A stretch of DNA of 64,000 nt. It comes from Pyrodictiaceae archaeon (GTDB lineage Archaea; Thermoproteota; Thermoprotei_A; Sulfolobales; Pyrodictiaceae). Below the pieces are notes generated by a model that was not told the origin of the DNA, ran no database searches, and was given only the letters and a program-made list of their open reading frames with translations. The DNA is taken from positions 500,880 to 564,879 of the forward strand of contig JALVSY010000007.1 of assembly GCA_027036135.1 (NCBI GenBank), in the 5' to 3' direction. Each line of letters starts with the position of its first letter. Positions within the stretch are counted from its first letter, which is position 1. The position numbers were made by a program, and so were the translations under genes. This document shows, piece after piece, positions 47,958 to 56,072 of this stretch.

Positions 47958-48977
47958 CTATGGCCTTAGTCTGGGTACTCTCGTGGCTAGCTCGGAAAGA
48001 ATAGCCTCGCCGACCTCTCTCGTTGAGTGGTTCCCGCCTAGGTCGGGTGTCGTCATCCTCTTCCCCCATATCACCTTTTCTATTGACTCGCTGAGCGCCT
48101 CAGCAATGACCAGTAGTTCTTGGTCGCCATGCTCTTGGCCGAGGTATTCTAGGAGGTACTGTGTAGCTCTTAGAGCCGATACGGGGTTAGCTATCCCCTT
48201 ACCAGCTATATCCATGCCTGTTCCATGGATGGGCTCGAATAGTGCTCCTCTCTCCCCGAGCTGTGCGGAGGCGAACAAGCCTATGCTGCCAGCAATGGCT
48301 GCTGCTATATCGCTCAGTATGTCTCCGTACTGGTTGAGCGCGACAAGCACGCCGAGCCCACTAGGGTTCTTGACAATATGGTAGGCAGCGCTATCGACCA
48401 GCAAGTCCGTGGCCTCTACGCCGGGGTAGTTTCTCGCAGTGTTGTAGAACTCTTCGAGGAATAATCCATCAGTTGCACGGAGAACAGTAGCCTTATGTAC
48501 AGCTATTACCCTTTTATACCCTAGTCTCTTTGCCTGCTCGAACCCGGTCCTAGCTATTCTCCGTGCAGCTCTCCGCGTAACAATCTTCAGCGCTACAGCA
48601 ACGTCGCCGAACACGCCCTCGACTCCAGAGTATATTCCTTCGGAGCTCTCACGCACAATTACTAGGTGTGTGTTCTCTGTCTCGAATCTCCGGATATCAG
48701 CGTAGATTCCTAGCAGTCTCCTTAGCTGGAGAGTTATGCTCCTATACCCGCCCCGGCTAGGGGTAGCCAATGGCCCCTTAATGACGGCGTCGGCGCTTAG
48801 CACTAGTTCCTCGAACTCACTTGGATAGGGCTGCCCCGTCTCCTTATAGTAGGCTAGCCCCGCCTCTACGCGGACAAGCTCTATGCTATCTATACCCGAG
48901 AGCAACTTCTCAGCGAAAACCATTATCTCGGGGCCGACACCGTCGCCGGGGATCAGTACTACACGGTACCGGGGCAT
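47958..48977 (-). CDS. NAD-type isocitrate/isopropylmalate dehydrogenase family enzyme, 339 aa
   Basis: It is a beta-decarboxylating dehydrogenase with GDGVGPEI at residues 11-18, and NQYGDILSDIAAAIAG for metal and substrate binding. The substrate-recognition helix reads YRSITLQLRR (S80, T82), closer to isocitrate dehydrogenases (RSLNVALR) than to isopropylmalate dehydrogenases. HGTGMDIAGKGIANP with DI at the cofactor site indicates NAD. It is the last gene of an operon with an aconitase-like pair and a Re-citrate-synthase-like enzyme, so isocitrate is the likely substrate. Homoisocitrate or isopropylmalate remain possible. Confidence 0.8.
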   Translation of the reverse strand: MPRYRVVLIPGDGVGPEIMVFAEKLLSGIDSIELVRVEAGLAYYKETGQPYPSEFEELVLSADAVIKGPLATPSRGGYRSITLQLRRLLGIYADIRRFETENTHLVIVRESSEGIYSGVEGVFGDVAVALKIVTRRAARRIARTGFEQAKRLGYKRVIAVHKATVLRATDGLFLEEFYNTARNYPGVEATDLLVDSAAYHIVKNPSGLGVLVALNQYGDILSDIAAAIAGSIGLFASAQLGERGALFEPIHGTGMDIAGKGIANPVSALRATQYLLEYLGQEHGDQELLVIAEALSESIEKVIWGKRMTTPDLGGNHSTREVGEAILSELATRVPRLRP

Positions 48978-48983
48978 CGCTTC

Positions 48984-49496
48984 TCACCATGGTAGCCTCC
49001 CATGCCTCTTAACGTACTCAACGAGTCCGCCTGCCCTAAGTATGCTGAGCAACGGCTCCTCTAGCCCAGCGACTCGCTCCACGACGCCCCGTGTAACATT
49101 AGTCACTATGCCCTCCTCAATCCTGACCTCAACGATGTCTCCCTGCTCCGTGACATCGGGGACCCTCTTAGCAACTATGACGGGCAGCCCAGAGTTAATA
49201 GCATTCCTATAGAATATCCTGTGAAAGCTCTTAGCCATGACCGCCCCGATGTCAATCATTTTTAGTAGCCTAGCGGCGTGCTCCCTGCTACTTCCATAGC
49301 CAAAGCCCTCGCCAGCAACAATCACGTCACCGGGGCGCACCTTCTCGTAGAACCCGGGAATGACGTCAGCAAACACGTAGGGGAGCATGTCTTCTAAGCG
49401 CCCCATCTTACTATACTTGTACTTCCCGCTAATGATGTGATCCGTGGTAATGTTGTCTCCCAGGACCCATGCCCTGCCACGAACAACAAGGCTCAT
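48984..49496 (-). CDS. Aconitase-like small subunit (LeuD/LysU/HacB family), 170 aa
   Basis: GDNITTDHIISGKYKYS at residues 14-30 starts the swivelling domain, and EGFGYGSSREHAARLLK near residue 66 is the conserved substrate-binding loop. The specificity loop after the DHI motif reads YKYS, unlike the YLVY or YLRT loops I remember for isopropylmalate isomerase and homoaconitase of methanogens. It pairs with the large subunit at 49528, 31 bases upstream. Confidence 0.88.
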   Translation of the reverse strand: MSLVVRGRAWVLGDNITTDHIISGKYKYSKMGRLEDMLPYVFADVIPGFYEKVRPGDVIVAGEGFGYGSSREHAARLLKMIDIGAVMAKSFHRIFYRNAINSGLPVIVAKRVPDVTEQGDIVEVRIEEGIVTNVTRGVVERVAGLEEPLLSILRAGGLVEYVKRHGRLPW

Positions 49497-49527
49497 AGCC
49501 TGCTCATCCCTAGGGCAATGATTGGTC

Positions 49528-50796
49528 TTAGATGAGGCTTCTTGGGTCAGTTATTCTACCCGTTACCGCCGCCGCGGCAGCAGTTAACGGGCTAGCCAGG
49601 TAGACCTTGGAGTCGCGGTGCCCCATTCTCCCAACAAAGTTCCGGTTACTAGTACTGATAGCAGTCTCGCCCTCGCCTAGTAGGCCGAAGTGGGCACCGA
49701 GGCACGGGCCACATGTACCATATGTTACTACACACCCAGCTTCCGCGAGAACATCTATTATCCCATCCCTAGATAGTTCTTGGAAGACGCGCCTAGATGC
49801 TGGCACAGCTATGCATCTCACACTCTCCCGTACATGGTGCCTCCTAAGTATGCGCGCAGCGGCCACGAAGTCCTCGTAGCGCCCATTAGTACAGCTCCCA
49901 ATGAACACCTGGTCCACCTCTATCCCCTCTACCTCGGCTACTGCTTTGACATTGTCTACCCTTGGCGGCGCAGCGACGAGGGGCTCTAGGCTACCCAGCT
50001 CCAGTTCTAGCTCATCACTGTACTCCGCGCTGGCATCAGGGTAGAGCCTTGGAGCCTCAACATCATATTTCTCTAGGAGTGTCTTGGCGGTGAGCTCGTC
50101 TACTGGGAAGAGGCCGAGCTTAGCCCCGGCCTCAACAACCATGTTGCTAACTGTGAGCCTTGCCGCGAGGCTGAGTGCCTCCAAGTCGCCCTGAAACTCG
50201 AGAGCCTTATAGATGGCACCGTTAGCGCCCAGCACGGATACGAGTTTCAGGGCGACATCCTTTCCCATAACGCCTCGCGGTAGCTCAGCACCGCTAAGCC
50301 TTACACGCACCTGCTCGGGTACACGTATCCAAGCCTTACCGGAGACAGCTGCTACAGCAGCATCAGTGCTACCGACACCGGTAGCAAAGGAGCCAACTGC
50401 GCCAAGGGTAACTGTGTGGCTATCAGCGCCAAGGATTATTCTCCAAGGCCGTGCATAGCCCTCCTCAACCATCACCTGGTGACTAATACCCCGGCCAACA
50501 TCGTGTAGCCTAACTCCATGCTTCTTGGCGAATCTTCTCATCTCTTGGTGGACCAGGGCAGCAGCCACACTAGGAGCAGGCGCTGCATGGTCTATGAATA
50601 GTATAAGCCTTCCCGGATCGACCTGGTCCTCCATGCCCATTTCCCGGAGAACACGTAGCGCCAAAGGAAAGGTACCATCATGCATATAGACGTAGTCGAT
50701 AGGAACCACTACATGTTCCCCGGGTGACGGCGCCTTACCCAGCCTCTTAGCCAGAATCTTCTCAGTCATAGTAAGGGCTGGCAACGCAGTGCTCAC
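49528..50796 (-). CDS. Aconitase-like large subunit (LeuC/LysT/HacA family), 422 aa
   Basis: DSHTVTLGAVGSFATGVGSTD near residue 122, GSCTNGR near residue 293 and CGPCLGAHFG near residue 358 hold the three [4Fe-4S] cysteines and substrate residues. Together with the small subunit it isomerises a 2-hydroxy tri- or dicarboxylic acid. It overlaps the citrate-synthase-like gene by 4 bases. In this operon citrate/isocitrate is the most coherent substrate, which is an inference. Confidence 0.88.
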   Translation of the reverse strand: MSTALPALTMTEKILAKRLGKAPSPGEHVVVPIDYVYMHDGTFPLALRVLREMGMEDQVDPGRLILFIDHAAPAPSVAAALVHQEMRRFAKKHGVRLHDVGRGISHQVMVEEGYARPWRIILGADSHTVTLGAVGSFATGVGSTDAAVAAVSGKAWIRVPEQVRVRLSGAELPRGVMGKDVALKLVSVLGANGAIYKALEFQGDLEALSLAARLTVSNMVVEAGAKLGLFPVDELTAKTLLEKYDVEAPRLYPDASAEYSDELELELGSLEPLVAAPPRVDNVKAVAEVEGIEVDQVFIGSCTNGRYEDFVAAARILRRHHVRESVRCIAVPASRRVFQELSRDGIIDVLAEAGCVVTYGTCGPCLGAHFGLLGEGETAISTSNRNFVGRMGHRDSKVYLASPLTAAAAAVTGRITDPRSLI

Positions 50797-52064
50797 TCCC
50801 CCATCGTTATCTCGGGGAAGTACCTGGTAGCTATCTCGTAGAGCTCCTCGTCGCTAAGCGAGCCCTGCTTCTCCCCCCTCTCATAGAGCCCAACAATCTC
50901 CTCGTGCATAGCTGCTACACGTGGATCATTCTTGTCAACTCTCTTCCCCACCTCAGGGAACCTGAGGCGGAGCCAGGCAACAATCGCTGCACGGCCACCA
51001 TACGCGTTAACCTCTATGCCGGGACGGCGCCCGACAAGACTAGGGTTGAAAGGCAAGTATATCTCCGGGTTCTTGAGCAAACCATCAATATGTATACCGG
51101 CCTTGGTGTTGAACACGTTACGGCCAACAATCGGCTGAAACTCTGGGACACGGTACCCGATCTCCTCAAAGAACCTAGCTACCCGGGGCAACACGGAGAG
51201 ATCTACATCGCCGCTACGCCCGGTCAAGCCAACGTAGTGAACAAGCATTACCTCTAATGGGCAGTTCCCAGCCCTCTCGCCTATACCGAAGAGCGTGCAG
51301 TTACTGTAATCGGCGCCGTAAATCCACGCAGCAAGGTGATTGGCCACGACGAGGCCGAAATCGTTATGCCCATGAAACTCTAGCTGGTGCGAGCCAAGCC
51401 CCAGCTCCCTGAGCCTCCTTATGAGCGCTGGTATTCCCCGTGGGAGGGGAACATCCGGGTACGGGAGGCCAAGCCCAAGGGTATCGGAGAGTCTGAACCG
51501 GATAGGTGTCCCGTACTCCTCGCTAAGCCTCAGAAGCCTCTCCACAAGAGGCCTAATGTTTGTCTCGAAGCTGGCCCGCGTCACGTCCTCGAGGGCGCAG
51601 CGAACAGTTATTCCCCTGCGAAGGGCCTCACCAATAACACTAACATACTTCTCCAACGCCCGCTGTCGATCAACGCCGAGCTTGTAGTAGATATGGTAAT
51701 CACTTATACTAGCAAGGATAATTGTCTCGTCAAACCCTGCCTCAAGCACGAGCCTCAAGTCATTAAAACTAGACCTTATCCACGCCACCGGCCTAGGCCT
51801 CTCAGCGCCATACTCTTGTATACGCCTAGCTAGCTCCCTGTCACGACTAGTATAGAGAAACAACTCCGTAGACTCTATAGCGCCCCTGCCGCCGAGCTCT
51901 ACGAGGAACTCGTATATCCTCAACCCCTCCTCGACACGCAGCGGCCTCCAACCCTGTTGCCCATCCCTAAGCGTGGTATCGGTAACAGCGAGCCTACGCC
52001 CAGCAAGTAACCCGTCAACGGGTATACGGGGGAAATCACTGTACGGAAAAACATCGTGGAACAA
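50793..52064 (-). CDS. Re-citrate synthase / homocitrate synthase-like enzyme, 423 aa
   Basis: DTTLRDGQQ at residues 29-37 and HGHNDF near residue 237 are the DRE-TIM metallolyase motifs. Internal segments (ISDYHIYYKLG, EDVTRAS, DTLGLGLPYP, LPRGIPALIRRL, GIGERAGN) match what I recall of the Re-citrate synthase of Clostridium kluyveri better than those of LeuA or LysN. Re-citrate synthases condense acetyl-CoA with oxaloacetate. The following three genes could then carry citrate to 2-oxoglutarate. A homocitrate synthase of lysine biosynthesis is the main alternative. Confidence 0.75.
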   Translation of the reverse strand: MFHDVFPYSDFPRIPVDGLLAGRRLAVTDTTLRDGQQGWRPLRVEEGLRIYEFLVELGGRGAIESTELFLYTSRDRELARRIQEYGAERPRPVAWIRSSFNDLRLVLEAGFDETIILASISDYHIYYKLGVDRQRALEKYVSVIGEALRRGITVRCALEDVTRASFETNIRPLVERLLRLSEEYGTPIRFRLSDTLGLGLPYPDVPLPRGIPALIRRLRELGLGSHQLEFHGHNDFGLVVANHLAAWIYGADYSNCTLFGIGERAGNCPLEVMLVHYVGLTGRSGDVDLSVLPRVARFFEEIGYRVPEFQPIVGRNVFNTKAGIHIDGLLKNPEIYLPFNPSLVGRRPGIEVNAYGGRAAIVAWLRLRFPEVGKRVDKNDPRVAAMHEEIVGLYERGEKQGSLSDEELYEIATRYFPEITMGE

Positions 52065-52661: not shown

Positions 52662-52934
52662 ATGGCTCTTCGTGTTAAGGTCGATGAGAAGGGTAGGATA
52701 ACGTTACCTAAGGAAGTGCGTGTGGCACTTGGTATAAGACCGGGGGATGAATTGTCAATAGATATTGTTGGAGAGAAAATAGTTATTGAGAAGAGTACTA
52801 ACCCCTTTGAGAAGCTAGGCAAGCTCCTCGGCGATATATCGTTTAGTAGGAAATTACGTCTCGTGGCTGAGCAAGAGGCTCTGAAGAGCATTAGGGAGAG
52901 GCTGAGTAAAAATGCCGAGGAAGTATCTGCTTGA
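52662..52934 (+). CDS. AbrB/SpoVT-type antitoxin, 90 aa
   Basis: LRVKVDEKGRITLPKEVRVALGIRPGDELSI is a complete swapped-hairpin AbrB DNA-binding domain, followed by a helical tail that would bind the toxin. Its end overlaps the PIN gene by 23 bases. This is the common archaeal VapB(AbrB)-VapC arrangement. It probably represses its own promoter. Confidence 0.88.
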   Translation: MALRVKVDEKGRITLPKEVRVALGIRPGDELSIDIVGEKIVIEKSTNPFEKLGKLLGDISFSRKLRLVAEQEALKSIRERLSKNAEEVSA

Positions 52935-53328
52935 GACGGGCTTCCTATTAGCTCTTAACCCCAATGATAGGAATCATGATTGGGCTATGGAAGTCCTTAA
53001 CAAAGCCAGGGAAGGAGGATTCAAAATCTGTATATCGCCAGCTGCACCGATAGAGATTTCGCTGATGTTAAGAAGCAGAGGAGTGAGTGATGACATTATA
53101 GCAGAGGTGTTCAAGGCAATGGATGACGCAATAAGTCTTTATACAGAACCAGAGTATTGTAGCCTAACGCTAAGACACCTTGCTTATGCCGCGGAGCTAC
53201 GATCGAAGTACCGAGGCTTGACCTTCTTTGATTCAGTGCATGCTGCGATAGCCATTACTAATAGGCTAATATATCTTGATCTAGACACTGTCGTACGAAA
53301 AGTAGTTGAGTCTGAAATGGGGCACTAA
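52912..53328 (+). CDS. PIN-domain toxin paired with AbrB antitoxin, 138 aa
   Basis: KYLLETGFLLALNPNDRNHDWA begins a PIN fold, but the usual first Asp is Glu8. The later SPAAPIEISLML and TFFDSVHAAIA supply Glu and Asp positions. The Glu substitution could still bind metal or may weaken activity. Translational coupling to the antitoxin is strong. Confidence 0.82.
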   Translation: MPRKYLLETGFLLALNPNDRNHDWAMEVLNKAREGGFKICISPAAPIEISLMLRSRGVSDDIIAEVFKAMDDAISLYTEPEYCSLTLRHLAYAAELRSKYRGLTFFDSVHAAIAITNRLIYLDLDTVVRKVVESEMGH

Positions 53329-53392: not shown

Positions 53393-54187
53393 TTAGCTTC
53401 CAATTATTAGTGGGTCTGTACTCGTTATCCTCCTTAGGAGCTCTATTACTGAGAGTGCTGCTAGCCAGCTCGTCCTCGGATTAGTCTTGCTGGGCACATT
53501 CTCTACCCTTATCTCTATCCGTGAAGCCTTTGACTCGACTAGTATTATGTGAGTGTTCCTCTCGACACTGGGGTCAACTATTACTTCTACTTCGGCTTCT
53601 TTGCCCGCTGCTAGGCTTAGGGCTGCAGCGACGTTGACGTTGAAGGGGAATCGCTTCACGGCCTCCCTCGCGGGGCCGTGGTAGAGTACTTTTCTCTCCT
53701 TGGCCTCGATGCCTAAGCTTCTCGGCGGCTTAATAGTCCTCAGCACTACCCTGTCTATGCCTACTGTTCTTAGTGCCCTCACAGCGTCTAGCCCAGCTAT
53801 TGCCCCCGTGGGCGCGTATATCTTGGCCCCGGTCTTCTTAGCGGTGGCTACGAGTTTTTCTCTTAGCTCGTCGTCGAGTAGTGCTCCAACGCTTAGGATC
53901 ACGAGGTTTATCCCGTGGGAGAGTATCTCTTCGCCGTACTGTCTTACTGCTTCCTGGCTAGCAGCCTCTATTACATAGTCCATGCTGTGTTCTAGGAACT
54001 CTTTGAGCGAGGTAGTGATCGGTACTTCTTTCCCTAGCCTCTCTTTTAGCTTCTCGCACTTCTCGGGATAAATATCCATCATTACTACTAGGTCTGCGTC
54101 CACAATGCCGCTGCCGAGGGCCCCGACGATCTCTGAGGCTATTGCGCCGCACCCTATGAGGCCTATGCAGGGCCTAGCATTGTTCAA
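53393..54187 (-). CDS. nadX: L-aspartate dehydrogenase
   Basis: It oxidises aspartate to iminoaspartate for quinolinate synthesis. GLIGCGAIASEIV at the N terminus is the NAD(P) loop, and GAIAGLDAVRALRTVGIDRVVL near residue 127 is the conserved active-site segment of NadX. The 264 residues match. It overlaps nadC by 14 bases and is the last gene of the nadA-nadC-nadX operon. NadX replaces NadB (aspartate oxidase), as in other anaerobic thermophiles. Confidence 0.9.
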   Translation of the reverse strand: MNNARPCIGLIGCGAIASEIVGALGSGIVDADLVVMMDIYPEKCEKLKERLGKEVPITTSLKEFLEHSMDYVIEAASQEAVRQYGEEILSHGINLVILSVGALLDDELREKLVATAKKTGAKIYAPTGAIAGLDAVRALRTVGIDRVVLRTIKPPRSLGIEAKERKVLYHGPAREAVKRFPFNVNVAAALSLAAGKEAEVEVIVDPSVERNTHIILVESKASRIEIRVENVPSKTNPRTSWLAALSVIELLRRITSTDPLIIGS

Positions 54188-55055
54188 CTCTCTTCATCTC
54201 CGCGGAGAGATCGATTCTCTCCGGGTGGTAGAAGGGATAACTGGTACTAATCACGTCTACCCCGCTCGCGGCGTACACGGCTATGTTCCAGGGCCCTATA
54301 CCGCCACTAGCCTCCACCAATACCTTGTCGCGTAGCCCGCTCTCCTCGAGCAAGCGGAGAGCCTGCCTAACCTCGTCCGGGGACATGTTGTCCAGCATGA
54401 CTATGTCTGCTCCGAGCCTCGCAGCAAGCACGGCATCCTCGGGCCTAGACACCTCAACCTCTAGTTTGTGTGCAAAGCTCTTCCTCTCAACAGCTCTCCT
54501 CAGGGCTTCCTCGAGGCTACCTATTATCTCCACGTGGCTATCCTTGACTATGAGTGCATCGCTTAGTCCCCAGCGGTGGGTGTCGCCTCCACCGTGGCGG
54601 AAGGCTAGCTTGGCGCAGAGCCGGAACCCTGGGGGAGTCTTGCGAGTAGCGGCTACTCTTACCCTACTGTTAAGCCTTCTAGCCATTAGTACGAGGCGCT
54701 GCGTAGCAGTAGCAATACCCGAGGCATACATGAGTAAGTCGAGCAGAGTTCTCTCAAGCAACAAGAGGTCGCGCGCACTCCCGCGTATGCGCATAACTAC
54801 GTTTCCTTCGTGGAACCATTGCCCGCTCTCAACGTGCTCGAGTACCCGTAGGCCGAGAAGCTCCAGGGCCTCAGCGGCCTCGGAAGTACAGGAGGCGACA
54901 CCACTGCTCTTAGCCCTTATAATCATCTCTGCACAGTCATCGCGTATGCCGAGAGCCTCGGTGGTAGCATCAATGTAGGGCGCGTCCTCCTTTATCCAGT
55001 GAAGCAGCTCCTCCGCTATCCTCCGGGACCAGAGCCCCGGGGACAGCCTCGTCAA
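54174..55055 (-). CDS. nadC: Nicotinate-nucleotide pyrophosphorylase (quinolinate phosphoribosyltransferase)
   Basis: It makes nicotinate mononucleotide from quinolinate and PRPP. TRKTPPGFRLCAKLAFRHGGGDTHRWGLSDALIVKDSH near residue 136-173 is the family signature, with the Arg/Lys/His residues that bind quinolinate. EVEVSRPEDAV and MLDNMSPDEV are the later TIM-barrel motifs. It lies between nadA and nadX on the same strand. Confidence 0.93.
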   Translation of the reverse strand: MTRLSPGLWSRRIAEELLHWIKEDAPYIDATTEALGIRDDCAEMIIRAKSSGVASCTSEAAEALELLGLRVLEHVESGQWFHEGNVVMRIRGSARDLLLLERTLLDLLMYASGIATATQRLVLMARRLNSRVRVAATRKTPPGFRLCAKLAFRHGGGDTHRWGLSDALIVKDSHVEIIGSLEEALRRAVERKSFAHKLEVEVSRPEDAVLAARLGADIVMLDNMSPDEVRQALRLLEESGLRDKVLVEASGGIGPWNIAVYAASGVDVISTSYPFYHPERIDLSAEMKRVEQC

Positions 55056-55124
55056 GGCTGCGGCACCACCTAGCGGGCAAGGAGACCTTCAGTGGAGAGA
55101 CGCGCATGTGTGGAATCCACCGTG

Positions 55125-56072
55125 TTATTTCCTCGGCTTCTTGCCTACTAGCTCTAGTCCCCTCTCAACAGCTTCCCGTGCCCTCTTCGCTATATTGCTT
55201 GGTATCTCTACTTGGGGCTTCAGTGTCTCTAAGCTGTGGACTATCTTCTCTAGAGTGATCTTCTTCATGTCTATGCAGACTGTCCGTACTGATACAGGAT
55301 AGATAGTAGCCTCTGGGTAGAGACGCTTAGCCCGGTAGGCGAGGCCCTCCTCGGTCCCAATTATGTAGGAGCCCTTGGGGTCTGTGCGGCCTATGTAGCG
55401 GAGCATCTGGCTAGTACTACCAATATACTCTGCGAGCCTGCGAGCTTCGCGAGGCGCCTCGGGGTGTACTAGTACTCGTGCCTCGGGGTGCTGCTCCTTC
55501 GCGAGTCTAACGTAGTACCCGCTCACAAGGTACTCGTGAACCGGGCAACGACCATGCCTCGGTACCGGGATTACTTGTTTCTCGGGCACGTTTTCCTGGA
55601 CCCATTCGGCGAGGTTCTTATCGGGCGCGAAGAGTACCTTCTCAGCCTCGAGCCTCTTCACGGCATCTATGGCCGAGGCACTGGTGACCACGTAGTCTGC
55701 CTCCGCCTTGGCCTCCACATAAGAGTTCACATAGATAACGAGGGGCGCACCGGGATGCTCCTGCTTAGCCTCGCGGAGCAGCCTAGGAGTCGCGAAGCTG
55801 GCTAGTGGGCACCCAGCAGCGGGCTCGGGGTGAAGAACTATGCGGTCAGGGTTAAGGAGCTTAGCAACCTCTGCCATGAAGCGTACCCCGGCCAAGACTA
55901 TTACGTCTGCCTCGGTCTCCATAGCCTTTATCGCTAGCTCGAGGCTATCCCCAACATAATCAGCGGCATCCTGTATCTCCGGGAGCATATAGTTATGTGC
56001 AAGGATTACTGCTCGTCGCTCACGCTTAAGCTTCTCAAGCCTGTCAAGGAGCATTTTAACATAAGTACTCAC
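55125..56072 (-). CDS. nadA: Quinolinate synthase
   Basis: It condenses iminoaspartate with dihydroxyacetone phosphate using a [4Fe-4S] cluster. The three cluster cysteines appear in AAGCPLASF, GRCPVHEYL region and VRTVCIDMKKI. Family motifs include ILAHNYMLPEIQDAADYVGDS near residue 23, and VYVNSYVEAKAEADYV in the middle. The 315 residues are normal. It is first in the NAD operon. Confidence 0.94.
   Translation of the reverse strand: MSTYVKMLLDRLEKLKRERRAVILAHNYMLPEIQDAADYVGDSLELAIKAMETEADVIVLAGVRFMAEVAKLLNPDRIVLHPEPAAGCPLASFATPRLLREAKQEHPGAPLVIYVNSYVEAKAEADYVVTSASAIDAVKRLEAEKVLFAPDKNLAEWVQENVPEKQVIPVPRHGRCPVHEYLVSGYYVRLAKEQHPEARVLVHPEAPREARRLAEYIGSTSQMLRYIGRTDPKGSYIIGTEEGLAYRAKRLYPEATIYPVSVRTVCIDMKKITLEKIVHSLETLKPQVEIPSNIAKRAREAVERGLELVGKKPRK

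Follow-up and report, generated by a model that had tools for sequence, protein, structure and literature searches.

A four-gene operon of a Pyrodictiaceae archaeon, predicted to serve lysine synthesis, begins with a gene of the Re-citrate synthase lineage

Operon structure and gene families

The window analyzed here is a 64,000-nucleotide stretch (C7:500880-564879) of the 2.2-Mb genome, in 40 contigs, of a hot-vent archaeon, which is 99.6% complete and has Pyrodictiaceae archaea as its nearest named relatives. At window positions 47958-52064, four ORFs, all on the minus strand, form one tight operon. The first gene (50793..52064; 423 aa, TTG start) encodes an acyl transferase of the Re-citrate synthase (Re-CS) lineage and is a predicted homocitrate synthase (HCS), based on its Pfam matches (HMGL-like and HCS_D2), its position in the tree, residue columns, and a lysine-cluster neighbourhood in relatives. 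It overlaps by 4 bp with the gene for the large subunit of a predicted homoaconitase of the IPMI/HACN family (49528..50796; 422 aa, GTG start; Pfam Aconitase), which scores above cut-off with TIGR02086, TIGR01343, and PRK00402 and is the conserved next gene in relatives of the operon. After a gap of 31 bp follows the predicted small subunit (48984..49496; 170 aa; Aconitase_C), assigned by TIGR02087 above cut-off and by loop comparison. Another 6 bp downstream lies the gene for a predicted NAD-type homoisocitrate dehydrogenase (47958..48977; 339 aa; Iso_dh, PF00180), which carries Ser80 and Thr82 and falls into the HICDH clade. ORFs, spacing, and Pfam matches all show the genes to be real, and the families, coordinates, and operon structure given in the initial annotation were borne out. 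Among NCBIfam subfamily models, PRK00402, IPMI_arch, hacA_fam, and LEUD_arch were passed by the isomerase subunits; no NCBIfam equivalog cut-off was reached by any of the four operon proteins.

Upstream of the operon and on the same strand, an NAD synthesis cluster (aspartate dehydrogenase, NadC, and NadA; window 53393-56072) was found, separated from it by a PIN-domain ORF on the opposite strand (window 52912-53328). The NAD synthesis cluster also adjoins the operon in genomes G002 and G004.

Lineage and active-site residues of the first gene

Judged by its sequence, the first gene is of the Re-CS lineage and is neither a LeuA nor a usual HCS. Its product belongs to a Re-CS-like clade of 97 rows with 100% support, which is separate from LeuA/HCS, in agreement with the initial annotation, where the protein had been placed nearer to Re-CS than to LeuA. 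In a comparison set that held no experimentally verified bacterial Re-CS sequence, it shares 41-50% identity with the citrate-type Re-CS clade (41-44% with the bacterial Lachnospiraceae among these) and approximately 27-37% with LeuA or canonical HCS paralogues. A clade designated His-type (100/100) contains G035, which we take to be Ignicoccus hospitalis, together with Methanomethylicota, Nitrososphaeria, Zixibacteria, and Lachnospiraceae; the first protein falls outside it.

In HCS, residues Ser135 and Arg133 hold 2-oxoglutarate by its distal carboxylate. The Ser135 column contains His in 47/47 rows of the citrate-type clade and Ala, Ser, or Thr in 38/38 rows of the operon type, a descriptive split, since the row sets were picked after the first tree by tree position and context and the column was chosen from many that separate them. 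From these sequences, we infer that a single residue, His versus Ala/Ser/Thr in this column, may separate citrate and homocitrate types. The first protein has Ala157 at this position (a small residue, although not Ser/Thr) and Arg155 at the position of Arg133. Its metal ligands Asp34, His231, and His233 are present. However, Asp34 sits at the position of Glu13 and Trp95 at that of His72, so that two canonical HCS residues are replaced, and the protein lies outside the canonical HCS clade (LysS/NifV/6ktq type). The non-His group was paraphyletic in the best tree, but its monophyly was not rejected by the AU test (p 0.32), a result compatible with either direction of evolution between the non-His and His types.

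Motifs and phylogeny of the downstream enzymes

The dehydrogenase was recovered in a 33-row HICDH clade (100/97) together with lysine-cluster dehydrogenases, apart from the IPMDH and ICDH clades. Phylogeny, proposed as a check in the initial annotation, gave a split result: the synthase stays in the Re-CS lineage, but the dehydrogenase groups with homoisocitrate-type enzymes.

The dehydrogenase carries Ser80 and Thr82 in KGPLATPSRGGYRSIT, i.e., Ser80-Ile-Thr82, and the small subunit carries a YKYS loop (Y26-S29) in GKYKYSKM, a variant of the YK[FY] seen in lysine clusters. Both features were thus described correctly in the initial annotation, but they are not specific for citrate. The lysine-cluster members L063 and L136 have Ser-Val-Asn in the dehydrogenase and YKF in the homoaconitase small subunit, and dehydrogenases partnered with canonical HCS have Ser-Val-Asn, Ser-Ile-Thr, or Ser-Val-Thr. 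IPMDH-clade proteins and the small subunits of leucine sets differ from the Ser-Ile-Thr and YKYS motifs of the operon. Because the same or equivalent residues are found in lysine-cluster homologues, neither the YKYS loop nor Ser80/Thr82 was accepted as a marker of citrate. The predicted homoisocitrate dehydrogenase is possibly active on isocitrate too.

Citrate and lysine genes of the host

The initial annotation had proposed that the operon makes 2-oxoglutarate from oxaloacetate and had asked whether the genome encodes an ordinary citrate synthase, aconitase, and ICDH. All three were found in one cluster (C16:310910-316469): a single Si-citrate synthase (Si-CS; C16:310910-312100), beside it ICDH (C16:312297-313610, minus strand), and aconitase A (C16:313689-316469), which scores above the AcnA cut-offs.

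A lysine gene set in the order LysK-J-X-W <> Y-Z is located at G000:C7:598379-603765, approximately 45 kb from the operon and not around it. NCBIfam cut-offs were passed by LysX, LysW, the LysW-aminoadipate/glutamate kinase, and the ArgC-type reductase. The LysW C-terminus is EDWGE, and LysX carries WITNTARGG, like TtLysX (3vpd) and TkLysX (5k2m); PMC10433800 explains what the LysX/ArgX signature motif does. A second, separate LysX paralogue of the host resembles the ArgX of 3vpb.

DapB, the only gene by which the DAP lysine route was probed, was not detected in the host genome, which therefore gives no sign of this route. Consequently, lysine would be either taken up or made through the alpha-aminoadipate (AAA) pathway, and the latter needs homocitrate. 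The first gene of the operon encodes the sole HMGL-like protein over cut-off in the host genome, where no other HCS was found, and its partners are the only genes of the HACN/IPMI and HICDH/IPMDH types. IlvC remained below cut-off in this genome (27 versus 226 bits), giving no sign that the operon serves leucine synthesis.

Linkage to lysine genes in relatives

In G049, the genes are arranged as LysK-J-X-W<>Y-Z-ReCS-HacA-HacB-IDH, with no further HMGL-type match in that genome. The order in the Brockarchaeota locus L063 is LysW-X-ReCS-(2 ORFs)-HacA-HacB-IDH-LysY-Z-J-K; L064 has LysW-X-ReCS, and L051 has LysY-Z-ReCS-HacA-HacB-IDH. The location of the operon genes inside lysine clusters places the family in lysine synthesis. 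Relatives also carry a separate leu set.

We typed paralogues of the synthase family as canonical HCS or IPMS from residue columns. Four genomes (G006, G007, G009, and G019) have HICDH orthologues of the operon's clade and LysN/LeuA-type paralogues without a Re-CS-like gene. The canonical HCS was recognized by sequence in the first three (Glu13, His72, Arg133, and Thr135, as in 6ktq); in G019, where the dehydrogenase and both isomerase subunits are of the operon's groups, it was judged from match length and identity. A dehydrogenase of the same clade beside canonical HCS suggests that the downstream enzyme is constant while the first enzyme differs.

Among relatives with at least 90% completeness, tabulated by hand, a close LysX was present in 22/24 genomes with the non-His type and in 25/59 without it (Fisher p 2.5e-5, a value that overstates the independence of the data, as the genomes are related). 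Si-CS was also found in 6/24 near-complete genomes with the non-His type and in 0/4 with the His type. Two bacterial His-type members lie near citrate enzymes: L120 near NADP-ICDH and L103 near aconitase and an ICDH-like ORF.

Relatives with divergent gene content

Several relatives fit less well. Three Pyrodictium-like genomes (G005, G011, and G014; L132, L130, and L131 with L153, L145, and L159) carry a canonical HCS in addition to the Re-CS-like operon, and no match to Si-CS or ICDH was found in them. The 99% complete genome G094 has a complete operon (L137:9412-13437), and no close LysX was found there. In G055 (L144:7754-12100), the gene for an NADP-isocitrate dehydrogenase (NF006156 above cut-off) immediately precedes a Re-CS-like gene of the non-His type and the genes for HacA and HacB; Si-CS was not found in this genome. 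The operons L068:9630-13813 and L069:9926-14126 combine a His-type Re-citrate synthase, HacA, HacB, and an isocitrate-like dehydrogenase. Their HacB loop is FFH/YFH instead of YKF, and their dehydrogenase lies outside the HICDH and IPMDH clades. These two operons come closer than the window operon to an oxidative half-TCA route, which looks to be realized in a few relatives, namely G055 and the bearers of L068 and L069. In view of these exceptions, the operon may have a dual or switched citrate/homocitrate role in some lineages. The Ignisphaera-like genome G021 (L134) has a second, lone Re-CS-like copy of the Ser type in addition to its operon copy.

Proposed function of the operon

We consider it very probable that the operon represents the upper half of the AAA lysine pathway, begun by a homocitrate synthase of the Re-CS lineage. 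A lysine role is suggested by the LysWXYZJK set, the failure to detect DapB, the sole HMGL-like candidate in the host, the linkage to lysine clusters in relatives, and the Si-CS/ICDH/AcnA cluster located elsewhere. Further points in its favour are the same-clade dehydrogenases of genomes with LysN/LeuA-type paralogues, the residues other than His in the Ser135 column, and the higher share of genomes with a close LysX among those that have the non-His type. This most likely reading draws on sequences, phylogeny, genome content, and neighbourhoods, from which we infer substrate specificity and flux, and it explains best the gene content of the host's own genome. The first enzyme would convert 2-oxoglutarate and acetyl-CoA to homocitrate, the two-subunit homoaconitase would convert homocitrate to homoisocitrate, and the dehydrogenase would oxidize and decarboxylate homoisocitrate to 2-oxoadipate. 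After transamination, LysX would load alpha-aminoadipate on LysW, and LysZ-Y-J-K would complete lysine. The Re-CS-lineage homocitrate synthase would thereby replace the canonical archaeal HCS, which is absent from the host genome. Against a lysine role stand the missing Glu13 and His72, the Ala at the Ser135 position, the distance of 45 kb to the LysW cluster, and the gene content of G005/G011/G014, G094, and G055.

Two related proposals extend the operon to citrate. It is doubtful that, in crenarchaea after the loss of Si-citrate synthase, one operon runs two successive elongation cycles, and that the citrate-type Re-CS arose within the lysine-type family together with an active-site change from Ala/Ser/Thr to His. 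For the host itself, we regard a dual use as unlikely, in which the four enzymes would first extend oxaloacetate to 2-oxoglutarate and then take 2-oxoglutarate on to 2-oxoadipate, in the way that AksADEF lengthen 2-oxoacids iteratively in methanogens. The steps are chemically homologous, the Ser-x-Asn/Thr motif of the HICDH clade resembles that of ICDH, and some operon-bearing relatives lack Si-CS and some lack a close LysX; however, such dual use would be superfluous in a host with a separate cluster leading from citrate to 2-oxoglutarate.

Still less probable is the role put forward in the initial annotation, in which a Re-citrate synthase, an aconitase, and an isocitrate dehydrogenase constitute an oxidative half-TCA route that turns oxaloacetate into 2-oxoglutarate. 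The lineage of the first gene, the compatibility of Ser80-x-Thr82 with isocitrate, the Pyrodictium-like relatives in which the operon occurs without Si-CS and ICDH, and the coupling of a family member to NADP-ICDH in G055 would agree with it. However, the host already has its ordinary Si-CS/ICDH/AcnA cluster, its LysWXYZJK pathway would be left without an HCS, relatives link the family to lysine clusters, the first gene lies outside the His-type Re-CS clade, and the motifs cited for this role are common to lysine-context genes. The initial annotation had itself named a complete ordinary citrate synthase/aconitase/ICDH set and clustering of the operon proteins with LysN/HICDH as findings that would speak against it, and this is largely what we observed. 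A leucine (2-isopropylmalate) operon, which would use the same enzyme families and agree with the IPMI_arch match, is extremely improbable and was rejected, since IlvC was not above cut-off in the host genome, Arg155 occupies the dicarboxylate-binding position (Leu/Glu in IPMS-type rows), the dehydrogenase is outside the IPMDH clade, and relatives have their separate leu set.

Significance and comparison with known systems

If the lysine role is right, homocitrate synthase activity is not confined to one side of the HCS/Re-CS divide, and many Re-CS-looking genes of Thermoproteota would wrongly be taken to indicate a citrate route although they make lysine. His versus Ala/Ser/Thr in the HCS Ser135 column offers a concrete residue for telling both types apart, and the operon provides an entry point to the question of how Re-citrate synthase evolved. 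In the literature searched, coverage of which was partial, we found no report of a Re-CS-type homocitrate synthase. According to PMC12016533, Ignicoccus is reported to use Re-CS.

Three known systems resemble the operon. The methanogen system AksA/AksD/AksE/AksF comprises the same four enzyme families and performs one such elongation cycle, but the operon proteins score below the AksF, HacA_Meth, and HacB_Meth equivalog cut-offs and are linked to LysW lysine genes instead of coenzyme B. The Re-citrate synthases of Clostridium kluyveri, C. difficile, and Heliomicrobium are the nearest characterized lineage by tree and share with the host protein the Trp at HCS His72 and the Asp at Glu13. The host protein differs from them by Ala157 in place of His, by its position outside the His-type clade, by the presence of Si-CS in the host, and by its operon with predicted homoaconitase and HICDH. 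With the LysW-mediated AAA pathway of Sulfolobus, Thermus, and Thermococcus, the host has in common the complete LysWXYZJK set, the HACN/HICDH-type partners, and the gene linkage in relatives; it differs in that its candidate for homocitrate formation comes from the Re-CS lineage and not from the canonical HCS clade (PDB 6ktq/2ztj type).
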